Translations under genes and position numbers: made by a program
Shown here: positions 113-6,937 of the stretch, piece after piece
Numbering within the stretch: position 1 is the first letter of the stretch
Layout: every line of letters starts with the position of its first letter
Assembly (NCBI GenBank): GCA_035528375.1
Contig: DATKYS010000089.1
Coordinates: 1 to 6,937 of the forward strand
Length of the DNA stretch: 6,937 bases
Direction of reading: 5' to 3'
Origin: a bacterium
GTDB taxonomy: Bacteria; RBG-13-66-14
The notes under the pieces: model-generated
What the model was told of the DNA's origin: nothing
Databases searched by the model: none
Seen by the model: the letters and a program-made list of their open reading frames with translations, nothing else

Positions 113-1030
113 TCACTCGAATTTCTCCAGGTGCCCCCACAGTTTCTTCTTGAAGTGTTCCAACGTGTACCGGCCATCTCCGTCAGGGGGGAACCGCTCC
201 ACGTTCGGCTCCATGCTGGGGGCGTTGACCTGCCACCAGCGGTCCATATCGCCGGCTCTTGGGAAACACAAGACACTCTGTGCGTCTCCCTCTGCCTGGA
301 GGTAGAACTCCCGCCAGTCTTCAGTAGGAACGACCGAGAGCCCGAACCAGAGGAAGCCCTTCATGCCCCCTGGGCGTATCAAGAAGCCATAAAACCACGA
401 ATTCGTAGTCGAACGTACAGGTCCAACATCGAAAGAGGAATACCGGAGCCTTATCTCGTCGCGAAGCCGTGCCAGGAAGCGGTGCAGTAGGCCGTAATCA
501 TTCTCCCAGGACCACTCTCCCCTCCCCCACAGACTCACGGCGTTTTTGACCTTTTCGGTGGTCAGTACCTCGACGCCGTGGACGTACTCCAGCAACTGCT
601 CGAAGAGTACTTTCGCCCGCGGCGTGGCTTGCGCCGGCCCCCCGGCGAAGTCCTCCCAGGTCTTGGTGGCTAAACCCTCCGCGTTGCACAGCCTGCGCAC
701 CTCATCGAGGCGGTACTCAGGCACAATGACCGCATGGAGCTCACCGGGCTCCGGGTTGGTGATGTCCGTGTGCTGCCCTTGGGTGAAGCCGGCGTGGAGC
801 TTCAACTCGACGATACGCCGCCCACCACTTTCAAACTCCAGCACCAGATCGTACCGGAGCCCCTCCCCCTGGACCTCCTCACGTACCCGGGTGCAGGGTC
901 CTTCATCCCCGAAGCCGAGCCATCCGACCAGCTCCTCGCGGAATTATGGTTCTTTGGATGCGTGAACGATGAGGGCTTGGACCAGGCGCTCGCCGGTGCG
1001 GCCATCTATGAGGTGGAGGAGGCTCATCAT
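113..1030 (-). pseudogene. PD-(D/E)XK nuclease-like protein, interrupted by in-frame TAA
   Basis: Reading from ATG at 1028-1030, the frame gives 28 residues (beginning MMSLLHLIDGRTGERLVQAL), then TAA at 944-946, then 276 more residues to TGA at 113-115. The two parts read as one protein: the PD-(D/E)XK core follows the stop, with Asp61 in LRYDLVLEFE and Glu75-x-Lys77 in RRIVELKLHAG, then Gln84/Gln86 after the lysine, the order seen in nuclease-fold families such as PDDEXK_4. The C-terminal half is rich in Trp, Phe and Tyr and is not recognised. Restarting after the stop is possible only at CTG or GTG (codons 62-63), which would drop Asp61, so a truncated product should be inactive. The role (defence, restriction, DNA processing) is inferred from fold and location only. 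The start is uncertain: the frame is open further upstream to 1180 and no convincing Shine-Dalgarno sequence is seen. A base-calling error at the stop is also possible. Confidence 0.6.
944..946 (-). other. In-frame TAA stop in the nuclease-like frame
   Basis: On the minus strand the context is CCA-TAA-TTC-CGC, between ...HASKEP and FREELVGWLGF. Both flanks are in the same frame and read as continuous protein. No upstream frameshift is needed to join them, so a single substitution would restore the gene. Confidence 0.75.
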
Positions 1031-1330
1031 CCAGGTGCCCCAACGATTACGTCTCCTGGACCTACATCGGGTACAGGGCTGCCAAGTTCTCAATTTAAGA
1101 TTATGGGGGCGAGGTATGTCAAGGAAGGTCACCGTGGGATTTTTTTTACGCAGAGAGGTAATTTCCTCTGCCAGCCACACCGCGCAGTCATCTTATTTAA
1201 CTAATAATAAATGAGATACAAAATTAAACATGGTAACCACTTGACATAAATTTGTTCTCGTGATATGATACCTAACGTTGATGATTGAGAGCCTAATTAC
1301 TCCTACTTGACGACGGGAAGGCGGTAGAAG
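1031..1330. promoter_or_regulatory. Divergent control region between nuclease-like gene and repressor
   Basis: This 300-base gap separates two divergently transcribed units. The part at about 1190-1300 is AT-rich and holds the strong plus-strand promoter annotated separately. On the minus strand a weaker candidate for the nuclease-like gene has TTGACA (1117-1122), an 18-base spacer and TTAAAT (1093-1098, four of six matches). A short hairpin (arms 1150-1155 and 1166-1171) lies next to a run of eight T at 1140-1147, but in an orientation that does not make a terminator. Repressor operators would be expected here, but I see no convincing repeated or palindromic operator pair. The minus frame stays open from 1180 into the nuclease-like gene, so part of this region could be coding if the true start lies upstream. 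Confidence 0.5.
1241..1269 (+). promoter_or_regulatory. Strong sigma70-type promoter for repressor-recombinase operon
   Basis: A perfect -35 TTGACA (1241-1246), a 17-base spacer, then TATGAT (1264-1269) with an extended -10 TGA just before it. Transcription would start near 1276, giving a leader of about 55 bases before the repressor ATG at 1331. The near-consensus quality suggests a promoter that needs control, presumably by the repressor itself. Confidence 0.8.
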
Positions 1331-2098
1331 ATGAGCAGCCTGGACATCTCCTCGCGAATTCGCCAGTGTAGGACACAGAAGGGCTGGACCCAGGGCGAGC
1401 TCGCGGAAAAACTCCTGGGTAGCGAGCTGAACGGCGTGGAAGGCGAAGAGCGGGATAACATGATTCGGTCCGTCCAATCGAAGGTCTCGGTGTGGGAGAG
1501 GGGTAAGTTCGAGCCGTCGCTGTCCAGTCTCGTAGAGCTCGCGGTCATCTTCGACGTGACCCTTGAATGGCTGGGCACGGGTAAGGAGAAAGACAGGAAC
1601 TGGACTAGAGGTATGCTCCCTCTACTCGAAGAGATCCCGCTCACTTTCCATTCCAAATACAATTTCAAAGAACACGTCGTAACCAACGAGATGCTGAATA
1701 AATCGCTGAAGGTCAGCGTGCCCCAGAAGCTCATAGACGACGGAGCTGATTACCTCGTCCAGGCGCTGGATAACACGATGTGCCGGGATGGAATCTACAA
1801 GGGGGACTACGTCGCCGTGCGCATGCTCCCTCTGTCTGGTGAAGAAGAAGATTTTATCGAGGCCGAGCCCGACGTTAACACCGGGAAAATCCTGCATGTA
1901 GCATTTTGGATGAGAGACGCTCACCCTCGGTGGGTACTAGGCAGGGCTTATCGTTCGACGGATTCAAGAGGCATCGACATCTACAAGAACGACGGCAGCT
2001 ACAACAACCCCGTGACGTACCCTTACGATACGCACCAATTCCACATCCTCGGGGAAGTCGTCGGGTGGATACATCTGGAAAAGCACAAGAAGGAATAA
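1331..2098 (+). CDS. Phage-type repressor, XRE HTH plus S24/LexA-like domain (dyad apparently lost)
   Basis: A 255-residue protein with the two-domain plan of CI-like repressors. The N-terminal HTH spans about residues 6-83 (IRQCRTQKGWTQGELAEKL, then SVWERGKFEPSLSSLVELA and DVTLEWLGTG). It carries an unusual acidic insert at about 31-46 between the first helices and the SKVSVWERG segment. The C-terminal half (about 138-250) resembles the S24/LexA fold: the stretch ALDNTMCRDGIYKGDYVAVR (145-164) matches the usual V-x-G-D-S-M...GD-x-v pattern, but the catalytic serine position is Thr149. Where the lysine is expected, the sequence reads PRWVLGRAYR (199-208), without lysine. Self-cleavage in an SOS response is therefore doubtful. 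The ATG follows a purine-rich GGAAGGCGG stretch. The gene heads the operon, 21 bases before the next start. It probably regulates its own promoter and the element's other genes. The target operators are not identified. Confidence 0.85.
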   Translation: MSSLDISSRIRQCRTQKGWTQGELAEKLLGSELNGVEGEERDNMIRSVQSKVSVWERGKFEPSLSSLVELAVIFDVTLEWLGTGKEKDRNWTRGMLPLLEEIPLTFHSKYNFKEHVVTNEMLNKSLKVSVPQKLIDDGADYLVQALDNTMCRDGIYKGDYVAVRMLPLSGEEEDFIEAEPDVNTGKILHVAFWMRDAHPRWVLGRAYRSTDSRGIDIYKNDGSYNNPVTYPYDTHQFHILGEVVGWIHLEKHKKE

Positions 2099-2119
2099 CC
2101 AAATCCCTCTAGGAGGAAG

Positions 2120-2371
2120 ATGACCGACCGGGACCCGGATACCGCCAGTACCCTACTCATTATTCCACGACGCTTGTATCTCAAGGAGGGCGCTGAGGGT
2201 GAACATACAGATTTTGAGCTGGAATTGTCTGAACCCATGCTCCGCGCACTGGCAGACCTAATCCAGCTCATCAACAACAACTCCCACCGCTTTCAGCACG
2301 GGGAATCCCCGGAGGAAGGCCCAAGAACACAGGAGGGGGAAGAAATTAAACACCAAGCCAGTTGTCCTTAA
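2120..2371 (+). CDS. Small acidic protein of unknown function
   Basis: An 83-residue protein lying 21 bases after the repressor and 24 before the recombinase. A full AGGAGGA Shine-Dalgarno sequence (2111-2117) supports the ATG at 2120, although the spacing is tight (three bases from AGGAGG). The N-terminal part reads TLLIIPRRLYLKEG, likely a beta-strand segment. About residues 37-52 (LSEPMLRALADLIQLI) form a plausible amphipathic helix. The last 25 residues are polar, rich in Glu, Gln and His, and probably disordered. There is no signal peptide, membrane segment or metal-binding motif. I do not recognise a family. Its place between repressor and integrase makes a recombination directionality factor, an accessory regulator or an antirepressor conceivable, but nothing in the sequence selects among these. 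Confidence 0.7.
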   Translation: MTDRDPDTASTLLIIPRRLYLKEGAEGEHTDFELELSEPMLRALADLIQLINNNSHRFQHGESPEEGPRTQEGEEIKHQASCP

Positions 2372-2395
2372 CCCCAAAAACGAAGGAGAGAAACG

Positions 2396-3961
2396 ATGGA
2401 AAAGAGAGCTGCTATCTATGCCAGGTCTTCAAACGATGAACACGATGTAAGCTGTGAGTCGCAGTTACGCATCCTGCCTGAGATGGCCGAGCGAGAAGGG
2501 TGCGCGGTAATCCTAGAAAAGGAGGAGCGAGGTGTAAGCCATTTCGACCAGCAGGAGCTCACAGCGCTGCTTGAAATCGCCCACACACAGAAGTCCTACG
2601 AGCATCTGTACGTCTATGACCCATCAAGACTGAGTAGACGCGTGAACACCTACTTCGAACTGCTGAGGGAATTCGATGTGTACGGAGTCAAGATCCATTT
2701 CAGCACGCTACCGGAAGTAGACGACGTTCCCACGAACAACCTCAACCGAAACCTCTACGGCGTTCTCAACCAGTTCCACAGCGATAACGCTGCTGCGGGG
2801 GCGAAGAGGGGCATGCGAGAGAATATCCTGAAAGGATGGCGCTCGGGAGGGCCTCCGCCCTACGGTTACAAGTTACGGCACGAGGTTCTTGGAAAAAACA
2901 AGAGGGGGAAAGAGGTTAAGAAGTCCAAGCTGGTTATCGAGGAGGATGAAGCCCAGATAGTGAGGGAGATATTCGGGCGCGTCAGCCAGCACGAAAGTTA
3001 CGCCTCCATCGCTCATGACCTTTCACTTCGAGGCATCCGACGCCGGCGCGGGAAAACTCAATGGGATGCGACTGCAGTCGGCTCTATCGTTAACAAAGCA
3101 GACGTTTACCTGGGGAACACTGTATGGAATAAAAGTGGTGTACGCCAGAAACGGCGAGGTCGGCACGATGCGTTCAAGCGCCCCGAAAGTGAGTGGGTAA
3201 TCAATGAGAATACCCACGAGCCCATTATCACCCAGGAGTTGGCCCTTCTCGTTGAAGAGGCAAAGCCGAGTAGGAAGCGCTACGGCCAACGCACGAACGT
3301 GGTGAATCCCCTCCAGGGACTGCTGAAGTGCGGCTACTGCGGTAGAGTGTTGCATCACTGGGGTAACAACAAGCTGGCCTGCGCTACCAACGCGCGGGGT
3401 GAGGGCTGCAGCTTACCTCGGACGACCATCGGTTACGTCTGCCAGAACGTCGCGGAGCTGATTCTACAGAACCTGAACACGCCGAAGAAGAAGGCGCGCA
3501 TCGTCCAGTACCTCCTGAGCCGCGGCAAGAAGGGTGCGGATGACCCGTACGCGGATGAATTCAAGAAGATTCTTAAAGAAATCAAGAGCCTTGAAGCCGC
3601 TCTCCGTGAGAGCAAGAGCCCCGATGACGCCGCGCGTCTGATGCGCGAAACCCTGAATCCGCTCTACGAGAAGCGGGACAAACTGGAAGGGGTTCGGCTT
3701 GAAAATGAGTCTCGGGACAAGGAGCTGGTGACGGAGGCGGAGGCGAGGAAAGCCGTTGAGGTTCTCTACGAATCCCTCTCCAGCTTCGAGCAGTTACCGA
3801 GGAAGGAGCTGGCTAAACTCTTCCGGTGCGTGATAAAGGAGATACTGATAACAGTATCTCCCGAGGATGACCATCGTTTCAGGCTGGAAATACAGTGGTT
3901 ACCCGAAACGAAGGGGGGTTTTATTGGTGGAGGCGGGGGGAATCGAACCCCCGTCCGATGA
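2396..3961 (+). CDS. Large serine recombinase (site-specific integrase)
   Basis: A 521-residue large serine recombinase that would insert and excise the element through a phosphoserine-DNA intermediate. The N-terminal resolvase domain (about 1-145) starts IYARSSNDE, with Arg10 and probable catalytic Ser12, and has the RLSR motif at 78-81. The recombinase domain follows (about 150-290, opening SGGPPPYGY). A zinc ribbon has Cys312, Cys315, Cys329 and Cys338. A charged coiled-coil runs through about 385-455, as in family members where it steers integration against excision. A good AAGGAG (2383-2388) sits seven bases before the ATG. The length is normal for the family. The last 11 residues (GGGGGNRTPVR) and the TGA are encoded by the antisense of the ssrA 3' end, so the natural C-terminus in the excised circular form may differ. 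It is third in the operon and faces ssrA head-on. Confidence 0.93.
   Translation: MEKRAAIYARSSNDEHDVSCESQLRILPEMAEREGCAVILEKEERGVSHFDQQELTALLEIAHTQKSYEHLYVYDPSRLSRRVNTYFELLREFDVYGVKIHFSTLPEVDDVPTNNLNRNLYGVLNQFHSDNAAAGAKRGMRENILKGWRSGGPPPYGYKLRHEVLGKNKRGKEVKKSKLVIEEDEAQIVREIFGRVSQHESYASIAHDLSLRGIRRRRGKTQWDATAVGSIVNKADVYLGNTVWNKSGVRQKRRGRHDAFKRPESEWVINENTHEPIITQELALLVEEAKPSRKRYGQRTNVVNPLQGLLKCGYCGRVLHHWGNNKLACATNARGEGCSLPRTTIGYVCQNVAELILQNLNTPKKKARIVQYLLSRGKKGADDPYADEFKKILKEIKSLEAALRESKSPDDAARLMRETLNPLYEKRDKLEGVRLENESRDKELVTEAEARKAVEVLYESLSSFEQLPRKELAKLFRCVIKEILITVSPEDDHRFRLEIQWLPETKGGFIGGGGGNRTPVR
3838..3861 (-). terminator. Perfect 10-bp hairpin, possible ssrA terminator
   Basis: An inverted repeat with arms GGAGATACTG (3838-3847) and CAGTATCTCC (3852-3861) around a four-base loop. 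It lies within the recombinase coding sequence, 64 bases beyond the ssrA 3' end. Read on the minus strand, the hairpin is followed by TTTATC, a short and imperfect U-tract, so it could stop ssrA transcription before it runs antisense through the recombinase. It could instead be an element-encoded protein binding site close to the attachment site, or a chance feature of coding sequence. The repeat is directly visible; its function is inferred. Confidence 0.4.
3925..3961. other. Candidate attachment site at the ssrA 3' end
   Basis: Element and chromosome meet near here. ssrA ends with its CCA at 3925-3927, and the recombinase frame continues through the acceptor and T-arm sequence to its TGA at 3959-3961. 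If integration used the ssrA 3' end, the crossover would lie inside or just beside this stretch, and the far end of the element would carry a partial copy. No such copy is present in the window, so the exact crossover bases cannot be set. Confidence 0.5.
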
Positions 3962-4182
3962 TGCCCTTGCGACAGCTCTACATGCTTAGCCGTGCTTGAC
4001 ATTCGCGACGGGCAGGGCGACGGCGACCTCAACCCGAAGCTAGCCCCTTCTTAATAGTCTCCCCCGGGGGAAGAGAGCCACCCCGGGCTCGACGCCCACC
4101 AGTTTCACGCCCACACCGCGGCCCGATGGGCCGAAGCCGCGGGGGACGGGCCTTACGTGCCTAGGTTATCCTAAAGGATAAC

Positions 4183-4212
4183 TTAAGCGGCCAACGCCAG
4201 ATCGTAATCGGC
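4183..4212 (-). other. tmRNA tag reading frame (ADYDLALAA)
   Basis: The frame GCC GAT TAC GAT CTG GCG TTG GCC GCT TAA encodes a nine-residue tag ending in ALAA, the usual protease recognition end; the alanine carried by tmRNA would precede it. GCC at 4210-4212 is chosen as the resume codon because it lies 12 bases after the 3' strand of the first pseudoknot (E. coli has 11), has A at -4, and encodes alanine. Resumption at ACA (4216-4218) or AAC (4213-4215) would give slightly longer tags and cannot be excluded. Confidence 0.75.
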
Positions 4213-4317
4213 GTTTGTGGTTTTGCCGCCTGTTTTACGAGGCCTGCGGCGACCTCGGCATGCAACCGGCGTTCGTGCTACCACCGTCGAACCCGAATCG
4301 CCCCCAGTGCGCAGACT

Positions 4318-4346
4318 AATATAGCCGCAATTTACCCCGGCGTCAA
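4318..4346 (-). promoter_or_regulatory. ssrA promoter (sigma70 type)
   Basis: On the minus strand: TTGACG (4341-4346), a 17-base spacer, and TATATT (4318-4323). Twelve bases then separate it from the mature 5' end at 4305, so the primary transcript would carry only a short leader for RNase P to remove. The strength suits an abundant stable RNA. Confidence 0.85.
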
Positions 4347-4382
4347 GCGCGGGCCTTTCCCGTGGCTGCGCAACCGTGCCCC

Positions 4383-4601
4383 TCAGTCCTCCTCACCTCC
4401 GTCCCGTCGGCCGACTATGCAGCGTCTCACCGCCGCCCAGGTCAAAAGCCCGACGAGCACGAACAGCAGGGCGTACTAGAGCCAGTCCAGCTCCTGCTGC
4501 AGGAAGACCGGCGCCCGTCCGTTGATAAGCGCAACGACGCCCTCCACGGCGAGCCAGAGGAGGGCAAGGCAGGCGATGACGACCCGGACGTACACCGTCA
4601 C
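4383..4601 (-). pseudogene. Small two-helix membrane protein, interrupted by in-frame TAG
   Basis: The start is GTG at 4599-4601, sharing two bases with the transporter's TGA, or more likely GTG at 4593-4595, which has AGAGGGTGA just upstream. The first part has one hydrophobic helix (VRVVIACLALLWLAVEGVVA) and ends FLQQELDWL at TAG 4476-4478. The same frame then continues for 30 codons with a second clear helix (YALLFVLVGLLTWAAV), a basic stretch RRCIVGRR and an acidic end GGEED, stopping at TGA 4383-4385. The whole would be about 70-72 residues forming a helical hairpin in the membrane. Either a 39-41-residue single-helix protein is made, or the gene carries a nonsense mutation (TGG to TAG would be one base), a readthrough codon or a sequencing error. 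The family is not recognised. Coupling to the transporter suggests a partner or accessory role. Its end lies 37 bases before the ssrA promoter. Confidence 0.55.
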
Positions 4602-5959
4602 CCTCTCTGCGAATTTTGACGGAACAGACCGCGCAGCCAGTGCACCGGCCGCTTGAACCCGGTCTCCCCCAGATGGGACACCAGCGGTTGGACGTAGCTC
4701 TCCGTCCTCTTGCTCATCCGCAGGAAGAGGAGGGCCGACGCCACGCGAAGAACGCCGGAGATGACGAAGACGAGCTGATACCCGGTGGGCCAGCCGCCGG
4801 CGAGGGGGACGGTGCCGCCGATCACCTTCGCCACGGCGCCGCCCGTCATCGAGCCGCCGAAGTACGCCAGGCCGGAGAACACCGCCACCAGGGCGATGGC
4901 GTAGGGACGGCTCTTCTTCGTCGCGATGGCCAGTGGAGTGGCGAAGACCGCCAGGTTCATCGCCGACCAGAACGCCCCCGACAGGACCGCCTCGGGCCAC
5001 ACGGGCCAGCTGAACCCCGGCCCGGTCGTGCTCCAGACCAACGGGAAGAGGCCCAGTACGACCCCGCAGGTCGCCAGGACCGCCCGGGCGCCGAAGCGGT
5101 CCAGCGCCCGACCCCAGAACCGGTTGGTGACCAGGACCGCCACCGTCACGATGACGCCGTACACCTGGATGGTGGTGTAGGAAAACCGGAGGTAATTCAG
5201 GGCGTGGGGCAGGAAGAAGGGTCCGCCCACGCCGAGGGCGAAATTCCAGCATACGACGGCGAAGAGGAACCGCCGCAGATTGTCGTTGCCCACGGCGTCC
5301 CGCAACCCCTGGAAGATGTTGAACTCGGTCCGATTCTCTCCGGGGGAGGGCGGGTAGATGGAGAGGAGGTAGACGCTCACCGTGCCGGCCACCACCGCGG
5401 CCCCGAAGACGATGAGGTGTCCGATGGCGAGGTCTCCCTCCCCGAGAAGGTCCACGAGCCCCGCGGCGCCCAGACCGGCGGCGAGCCCCGTGGCGCCGGT
5501 GAAGATGTTGCGCGTCCCGAAGTACCTCCCCCGGATGGTGACGGGGACGAAGTCGGCGGACCAGGAAACCCAGGCGTTATCCAGGGGGGCCGCAAAGGCG
5601 TAGCTGACGGCCGCGGTGAAGAGGAGCAGCATGAGGCGGGAATCCGAGTCCAGGGGCAGTAAGAGGAGCACCGCCGGAACGACCCACAATATCCGGTGCA
5701 CGGCGGAGGTCCAGATGAAAATCGGCCGGTGCCGCACACCCCGGGAGATGAGATAGGCCGAGACGAGCTGGAGGGGGCGGAACAGAAAGGGCAGGGAGCC
5801 CAGGAGCCCCAGCAGAAGCTCGTCGGCCCCCAGCTTGATGGCGAAACCGGTCAGGACGACGCCGGTGACGATGGAAAGGTGGAATTGGGCCAGGCAGCCT
5901 TCCCAGGTGCAGAGGTCGAGATCGCGCTTGAGCTGCCCGCGGTCGAGCTCCACGTTCAA
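4598..5959 (-). CDS. MFS transporter, 12 membrane helices
   Basis: A 453-residue integral membrane protein of the major facilitator type. About twelve hydrophobic stretches can be picked out, for example around 26-44, 48-72, 86-103, 109-125, 153-172, 179-202 in the N-half and 232-258, 264-284, 294-315, 322-347, 353-382, 394-416 in the C-half. A loop reading WSADFVPVTIRGRYFGTRN (133-151) after helix 4 is characteristic of a branch of MFS proteins of unknown substrate; NRFWGRALDRFGARA (282-296) is the equivalent loop in the second half. The polar C-terminus is basic. The TTG start at 5957-5959 overlaps the phosphatase TGA; GTG at 5951-5953, six bases after AAGGG, is a likely alternative start that loses two residues. 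The substrate cannot be inferred. The overlap implies co-translation with the phosphatase. Confidence 0.9.
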   Translation of the reverse strand: MNVELDRGQLKRDLDLCTWEGCLAQFHLSIVTGVVLTGFAIKLGADELLLGLLGSLPFLFRPLQLVSAYLISRGVRHRPIFIWTSAVHRILWVVPAVLLLLPLDSDSRLMLLLFTAAVSYAFAAPLDNAWVSWSADFVPVTIRGRYFGTRNIFTGATGLAAGLGAAGLVDLLGEGDLAIGHLIVFGAAVVAGTVSVYLLSIYPPSPGENRTEFNIFQGLRDAVGNDNLRRFLFAVVCWNFALGVGGPFFLPHALNYLRFSYTTIQVYGVIVTVAVLVTNRFWGRALDRFGARAVLATCGVVLGLFPLVWSTTGPGFSWPVWPEAVLSGAFWSAMNLAVFATPLAIATKKSRPYAIALVAVFSGLAYFGGSMTGGAVAKVIGGTVPLAGGWPTGYQLVFVISGVLRVASALLFLRMSKRTESYVQPLVSHLGETGFKRPVHWLRGLFRQNSQRG

Positions 5960-6621
5960 CCCTTGGGGAAGAGGGTCGGGAAGGGGTCCGAGCGTAGCTC
6001 GGGGGGAAGATGCTCCCGGTCGTTGAAGCAGGCGAGGCTGGGGCGCTCATCGGGCCAGACGACTCGGGCGAAAGACGCGTTGTCGAGGCGGAACCGGACC
6101 CAGCCGTCGAAGGGGACGCCCAGGACCGAGGCGAGGAACTGGGAGAGGATGCCCCCGTGGGCGGCGACGAGGGCCCGGGTCCACCCCTCGCCGACGATCC
6201 TTTCCGCCGCGGCCGAGGCCCGCTCGAACAGGTCCCGTCGGGATTCGCCACCCGGGAAGCGGTACTCGCCCCGGCGGTACACCTCCAGGTCTATATCGGA
6301 TAAAAATCCCGCGTGAAACTCATCGTAGGTGAGGCACGCCGCCGTTCCCAGGTCTATCTCCTCCAACTCGTCAATAATCACGGGACGCGGTATCCGCGCC
6401 CCAAGGGAAAACCCCCGCTCGAAGGCGGGGGCCAGAGTCGCCGCCACCCTCCCGGCCGGCGAGGCGTAAACGGCGTCAAGGCCAAGATTTACCAGCACGT
6501 CGGCCAGAGCCCGGGCCTGCCGAACGCCGCGTGCGGAAAGGGGGTAGTCCGTCCGACCCTGGAGGATACCCCGCTCGTTGGCCACCGTTTCGGCGTGTCG
6601 TAAGAGGATTAGCTCGCGCAA
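5956..6621 (-). CDS. Histidine phosphatase (phosphoglycerate mutase-like)
   Basis: A 221-residue cytosolic member of the histidine phosphatase superfamily, clade 1. The signature LILLRHAET places Arg8 and the phospho-accepting His9 at the N-terminus. QGRTDYPLSARGVRQA (21-36), SPAGRVAATL with Arg58, ELEEIDLG with the acidic residue near 85-88, GGESRRDLFER (124-134) and LVAAHGG with His155 follow in the family order. Relatives include alpha-ribazole phosphatase (CobC-like) and broad-specificity phosphatases (PhoE/GpmB-like); the sequence alone does not select a substrate. The start is TTG at 6619-6621, six bases after the preceding gene's TAG and in the same frame; the Shine-Dalgarno sequence is weak, which fits coupling to the upstream gene. 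The 3' end overlaps the transporter start. Confidence 0.9.
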   Translation of the reverse strand: MRELILLRHAETVANERGILQGRTDYPLSARGVRQARALADVLVNLGLDAVYASPAGRVAATLAPAFERGFSLGARIPRPVIIDELEEIDLGTAACLTYDEFHAGFLSDIDLEVYRRGEYRFPGGESRRDLFERASAAAERIVGEGWTRALVAAHGGILSQFLASVLGVPFDGWVRFRLDNASFARVVWPDERPSLACFNDREHLPPELRSDPFPTLFPKG

Positions 6622-6627
6622 CTCGAC

Positions 6628-6937
6628 CTAGAGCCGCTCGTGAACCTTGGCCATGGCGGCGTTGAGATCGGTGGGAACCCCCTCGAGGAGGTTCTTGATG
6701 GTGTCCCTGGTCTCCCGCACGAACCCCTCGTCCTTGATCCCGCCGAGGTTTATCTCCACGTTGAGAATCGCCCCGTTTATTCCGGCGGTCAACAGGAGCG
6801 CGCCGACCCCGATGTCGCTGACGGCGTTCTGGTTTCCGATGAGCGCCAGCCGGGGCGCCTTGGTGAGCAGGCGGCGGCCCAGCCGGGCCACCTCGAGCGG
6901 CACCTCGATGGCCCGCTTCGTGCATTTCTGAACCGCA
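6628..6937 (-). CDS. fchA: Methenyl-THF cyclohydrolase / formimino-THF cyclodeaminase, C-terminal part
   Basis: This is the last 102 residues or so of a longer protein whose start lies beyond the right edge. The visible segment matches the cyclodeaminase/cyclohydrolase family (FTCD_C domain) in one-carbon folate metabolism. It reads EVPLEVARLGRRLL, then the hallmark GNQNAVSDIGVGALLL, GAILNVEINL and GIKDEGF, followed by a helical tail ending AMAKVHERL. Stand-alone bacterial members of about 200 residues (FchA) interconvert methenyl-THF and formyl-THF or act on formimino-THF in histidine or purine breakdown. The length suggests about half the protein is present. No defect is visible. It is the first gene seen of the phosphatase-transporter cluster, but whether it heads the operon cannot be told. 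Confidence 0.88.
   Translation of the reverse strand, partial: AVQKCTKRAIEVPLEVARLGRRLLTKAPRLALIGNQNAVSDIGVGALLLTAGINGAILNVEINLGGIKDEGFVRETRDTIKNLLEGVPTDLNAAMAKVHERL

Follow-up and report, generated by a model that had tools for sequence, protein, structure and literature searches.

Phage-type serine integrases, e.g., phiC31 and Bxb1, usually have protein-coding genes as their targets. The literature gives protein-coding genes as the usual targets of serine integrases (PMC6109161), surveys of Mycobacterium found serine systems outside tRNA genes (PMC8092301, PMC10654092), and the 2015 Islander paper stated that serine integrases were not known to target tRNA genes (PMC4383910). The closest described systems are the Dehalococcoides ssrA islands, which carry the large serine recombinase (LSR) DsiB reading into ssrA, a 20-bp repeat, and tandem copies (McMurdie et al. 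2011, PMC3146451).

The locus described here was likened to the DsiB islands by arrangement. As in those islands, one LSR of about 520–540 aa lies at the ssrA 3′ end, the 3′ end of its gene overlaps the attachment site and runs antisense into ssrA, and several repeats follow downstream (tandem islands). Unlike in those islands, the small serine recombinase DsiA and the six-gene module are absent from the 3.9 kb next to ssrA, where instead a CI-type repressor and an 83-aa ORF precede the LSR. The inferred insertion falls in the middle of the T-loop in Dehalococcoides but within the block of T-stem, acceptor, and CCA here. Resolvase and Recombinase domains and membership in a PHROG integrase family are shared with phiC31, Bxb1, A118, TP901-1, and SPbeta YokA; however, the four phage-type serine integrases included in our tree fell outside the branch of this LSR, and enzymes of that type, unlike this one, usually target protein-coding genes. 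As in the tRNA/tmRNA islands of tyrosine integrases (Islander, PMC4383910), a tDNA 3′ end is targeted, the gene is kept intact, and a displaced fragment marks the far end. The streptococcal rumA ICEs (PMC4701971) likewise have their att site in the 3′ end of the integrase gene, the tail of which is altered by integration, but are conjugative elements with a protein-coding target.

Organization of the ssrA locus

The window, i.e., the whole stretch of DNA analyzed, is the entire contig C89 (6937 bp) of G000, a 2.6-Mb draft genome (Table 1). The tmRNA was matched across the full Rfam model RF00023 (159.8 bits), in agreement with ARAGORN, and was the only one above the cut-off in the G000 genome. 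The stop codon of the LSR lies inside ssrA, giving an antisense overlap of 37 nt (approximately the last 12 codons) with the ssrA 3′ end. The description in an earlier note on this DNA, i.e., an LSR adjoining the 3′ end of an intact ssrA with its frame running into it, was hence accurate. Of the 22-nt repeat at the junction, 16 nt belong to the ssrA 3′ end and 6 nt lie beyond it. GC content was 0.54 in positions 1200–3918 and 0.67 in positions 4306–6937, and there is therefore a composition step at the ssrA 3′ end.

Table 1 Features of the window (contig C89 of G000)
Feature	Positions	Strand	Basis or remark
Cargo gene, nuclease-like by eye (VELKLH motif)	116..1030	-	72% aa identity to the G003 cargo
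Sigma-70-like promoter TTGACA-17-TATGAT ahead of repressor and integrase	1241..1269	+	consensus match only
XRE/CI-type phage-like repressor, 255 aa	1331..2098	+	family match including PHROG; upstream of integrase, same strand
83-aa ORF between repressor and integrase	2120..2371	+	no family match
Large serine recombinase (integrase), 521 aa	2396..3961	+	Resolvase and Recombinase domains, PHROG match, alignment
Attachment junction, 22-nt repeat	3919..3940		copy at G000:C71:3268-3289
ssrA (tmRNA), intact, single-copy, tag ADYDLALAA, host target gene	3925..4305	-	ARAGORN, Rfam
Host flank: MFS transporter, histidine phosphatase, others	4306..6937		~90% identical and colinear with G001
Promoter-like site just upstream of ssrA	4318..4346	-	consensus match only

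The LSR matched Pfam families Resolvase (PF00239, 2e-18) and Recombinase (PF07508, 2e-18), both above the cut-off, and the PHROG integrase family phrog_95 (8e-67). Both its length and its domain order are those of LSRs (catalytic domain followed by Recombinase, roughly 450–700 aa). The catalytic residues Y8-R10-S12, R78, and R81 as well as the zinc-ribbon cysteines C312, C315, and C329 were invariant in an alignment of 17 sequences, while no Pfam zinc-ribbon family was matched at an E-value of 0.001. Judged by these invariant residues, the enzyme looks catalytically intact. The only solved structures matched at the sequence level were labelled resolvase homolog YokA or site-specific recombinase. 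Phage and plasmid records gave matches of roughly 20–30% identity only, and viral contigs scanned with this LSR alone gave one short match. N-terminal LSR-like fragments in G000:C11, G001:C168, and G002:C144 had no DNA in common with the window and were not considered further.

The phage gene found in the 3.9 kb assembled next to ssrA was the CI-like repressor (PHROG). The cargo gene has one in-frame stop in the window copy (counterpart in G003: L034 1786-2742, minus strand) and had no Pfam, PHROG, or PADLOC match; its VELKLH motif suggests a PD-(D/E)XK nuclease.

Far boundary of the element

A further copy of the ssrA 3′ end, for which the earlier note had proposed a search, was present in the G000 genome. 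Searching with the ssrA 3′ end returned one strong second site, on contig C71 (20 nt of the query, E-value 0.001), which extends to 22 identical nt (window 3919–3940 = C71:3289-3268). This site is flanked by AT-richer DNA on one side and by a strong hairpin (-21.8 kcal/mol) followed by host genes on the other. A hairpin of this type also follows ssrA in the congener G001, and the genes after the C71 hairpin are lipocalin-like and then outer-membrane-protein-like (by eye). The latter gene is colinear with DNA downstream of ssrA in G001, and the order of the two recurs in G002.

Another copy of the ssrA end is located at C71:2868-2951 (85 bp, 87% like the ssrA flank of G001). Here, the inner 14 nt of the junction (3924–3937) are identical at C71:2868-2881, about 0.4 kb from the 22-nt copy. 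The shared core hence comprises 14 or 22 nt, depending on which of the two candidate partner junctions, C71:2868 or C71:3268, is taken. Two copies of the ssrA end on one contig point to tandem insertions, an arrangement known from the ssrA islands of Dehalococcoides. The locus has the two ends of an ssrA-integrated island, namely an intact ssrA and, on the far side, a displaced fragment of its 3′ end; we infer that C89 and C71 are linked and bound one element or a tandem pair, the stretch between them lying outside the assembly.

At C71:1-1060, beside or inside the ssrA insertion region, host-like DNA with a GC content of 0.67 was found. An apparent nadE accounts for 321 bp of it and matches the end of contig C70 at 99% identity; a HEAT-repeat gene region that comes next is 82% identical to C126. 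This duplicated DNA could be cargo, a rearrangement, or a strain mixture, and it counts against a model of a single LSR insertion.

Element-free alleles and a sister element at tRNA-Glu

An element-free allele, which the earlier note had proposed to seek in related genomes, was found in G001 (contig C173), where ssrA is directly followed by its terminator, without an LSR. Window positions 3919–6932 were 90% identical to this genome, and on the other side of the insertion C71 was 87–89% identical to it from position 4114 onward.

Downstream of ssrA, G001 has a separate AT-rich insert (C173:8390-9300) encoding a protein that resembles trypsin by eye, at the point where G000 and G002 carry the lipocalin-like gene. 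Within the genus, the DNA that follows ssrA seems to be a hot spot for insertions. Contig G006:C54 ends exactly at the CCA of ssrA, and no ssrA hit was obtained in four other family members (G002–G005); assembly breaks at ssrA are expected if insertions there are frequent or repeated.

The nearest relative of the window LSR (40% identity) is encoded by the congener G003; its frame runs 64 nt into the tRNA-Glu 3′ end, as does that of an LSR fragment in G001. The tRNA-Glu gene of G000, in contrast, has a plain terminator-like flank without an LSR. By this comparison, the occupied site is ssrA in G000 and tRNA-Glu in G001, the other site being empty in each. A CCA follows the discriminator in the occupied tRNA-Glu alleles but not in the G000 allele, and the element therefore seems to supply it. 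Despite integrases of only 40% identity, the window and G003 elements have the cargo gene in common (72% protein identity) and a repressor in the same position, while the 83-aa ORF of the window is without a counterpart in the sister element. The latter also encodes a Prim-Pol primase, of which no relative was matched in G000, and a type III methyltransferase, both of which suggest a phage- or satellite-like element.

Serine recombinases at tRNA and tmRNA gene ends

When the neighbors of close recombinase homologues were tabulated, a check proposed together with the original claim, these homologues were also located at tRNA or tmRNA 3′ ends. Within the set of nearest relatives, the LSR of Sphingobacterium endophyticum (519 aa) overlaps ssrA by 39 nt, and LSRs of other genomes and viral contigs overlap tRNA-His, tRNA-Ser, tRNA-Ala, and tRNA-Glu.

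As a control, Recombinase-domain hits were collected from 242 genomes, nearly all of other families and phyla, irrespective of their similarity to the window LSR, and duplicates as well as the window LSR itself were taken out. This yielded 58 LSRs with a complete 3′ end, which were counted if they ended antisense in, or at most 120 nt from, a tRNA/tmRNA 3′ end. This applied to 22 of the 58 in a sample that is weighted toward poorly studied phyla and does not allow an estimate for bacteria as a whole. The number expected by chance, based on the RNA-gene density elsewhere in the same loci, was 0.27 (about 0.005 per LSR), and none of 207 other ORFs in the control loci ended antisense at a tRNA/tmRNA 3′ end. 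A single control LSR (L123, G196:C41) met a tRNA gene in sense orientation, at the 5′ end of tRNA-Met. Three of the 22 are ssrA users, overlapping the gene in G029 and G232 and lying 117 nt away in G135, which together with the window and Sphingobacterium gives five ssrA cases overall. The view of the earlier note that serine integrases using ssrA are uncommon could hence not be maintained, all the more as the Dehalococcoides islands had been described in 2011 (PMC3146451).

In a tree of 92 LSRs, the tDNA label needed 11 changes, at least 7 of which were forced by well supported branches; the ssrA users were scattered, and the window and G003 LSRs were sisters. As this was a quick tree with long branches, only a coarse statement was drawn from it. 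A two-sequence LSR profile run against viral contigs detected 27 loci, with 2 of 15 distinct LSRs at tRNA genes.

Judged by their position, the other LSRs located at tDNA would have integrated there. Long displaced tDNA repeats were searched for in eight LSR elements from outside the genus and in that of G003. Only G143 yielded a plausible short repeat, of 15 nt, which spans the 3′ end of tRNA-Pro and is located 6.6 kb away; nothing above background was obtained for the rest. Short cores, which are expected for this class of integrase, or larger elements would explain the missing repeats. On balance, it is likely that serine integrases recurrently use tRNA/tmRNA gene ends as attB across phyla and in several separate lineages, their attP lying at the 3′ terminus of the integrase gene. 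If so, the rule assigning tDNA to tyrosine integrases would stem from the choice of phyla and phages for study. A statement of a general LSR-tDNA pattern was not found in the open-licence library that was searched, which is weak evidence of novelty. The text of the 2025 TIGER/Islander release carries no remark on LSR-tDNA islands, although the release may already contain many of them (PMC12424338). The single ssrA locus varies a known arrangement; what merits further study is the recurrent targeting of tDNA ends by serine integrases.

Serine integrases generally make do with short sites and require no host factors. Almost all genomes contain the conserved attB sites of tDNA, and LSRs targeting tRNA genes or ssrA would therefore be portable integration tools. 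Island-finding programs in which tDNA signatures are combined solely with tyrosine integrases, an approach stated in the 2015 Islander paper, would miss such elements. A natural comparison is offered by two unrelated enzyme families that have arrived by convergence at a common target and a common gene-restoring geometry.

Probable insertion by the serine recombinase and alternative explanations

Taken together, the ssrA junction and the repeats at the far boundary, the tmRNA gene left intact, the G001 allele lacking the element, and the converse situation of the sister element at tRNA-Glu are best read as an LSR-driven insertion at ssrA, which we regard as very probable from the sequence evidence. 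The central proposal of the earlier note, an LSR-bearing element integrated at the ssrA 3′ end, is thereby borne out by a displaced ssrA fragment at the far end and an element-free allele in a congener. The LSR of the window would itself have carried out the recombination, with the crossover presumably within the shared 14–22 nt.

Accordingly, the left 3.9 kb of the window would be that end of a mobile element which carries its integrase and a phage-like repressor. A single LSR would recombine attP, located at the 3′ end of its own gene, with attB at the ssrA 3′ end, which would span the 3′ strand of the T-stem, the acceptor strand, and the CCA. Since these parts would be common to both sites, ssrA would stay whole, whereas its terminator and the downstream host genes would be pushed to the far end, behind the copy of the ssrA 3′ end. 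The integrase frame would then read antisense into ssrA. The sequence replacing the ssrA terminator folds with -3.8 kcal/mol, no better than shuffled sequences. Transcription of ssrA may consequently continue into the integrase gene, and such read-through may dampen this gene while the element is integrated.

In addition to, and not in place of, such an insertion, the ssrA-encoded tail of the LSR might be functional, so that integration would switch the C-terminus of the integrase. The predicted protein has 521 aa in the integrated state and 552 or 522 aa in the circle, depending on which far arm is joined, i.e., the predicted circular forms carry different tails. An exchange of the integrase gene end upon integration was described for the streptococcal rumA ICEs (PMC4701971) and discussed for DsiB (PMC3146451). 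However, the tDNA-encoded tails of other LSRs use all three frames (GGIRTP/GNRTP/GIRTP, DSNPRP, and GIEP types), as is expected from a passive reading of the T-arm, and the sequence conserved between the sister LSRs stops before the junction. Such an overlap was also pointed out for DsiB by McMurdie et al., who considered it unlikely that the ssrA-derived part has a function (PMC3146451). We consider a functional tail doubtful; the occurrence of all three frames among other LSRs led us to reject selection for the tail.

Insertion by the LSR is also to be weighed against insertion of the island by a tyrosine integrase encoded in the unassembled middle, with the LSR as a passenger at its edge. 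Since ssrA is a classic target of tyrosine integrases and the interior of the element is missing from the assembly, this deserves consideration, and the same comparison set contains a textbook arrangement in which a tyrosine-type recombinase (by eye; G033:C74, L225) ends 45 nt from ssrA. A passenger, however, fits poorly with an LSR that adjoins and overlaps the junction, with its nearest relative having the same arrangement at tRNA-Glu in two genomes, and with the geometry recurring in 22 of 58 other LSRs; moreover, none of the element ORFs scanned matched a tyrosine-integrase family. Insertion by a tyrosine integrase is hence improbable.

The in-frame stop in the adjacent cargo gene implies that parts of the element may be decaying, but chance adjacency, or a fixed LSR relic unrelated to the ssrA junction, is highly improbable given the exact ssrA repeats at the far boundary, the element-free allele, the composition step at the same place, the invariant catalytic residues, and the chance expectation per LSR, chance adjacency being largely refuted by the far repeat and the control LSR count.
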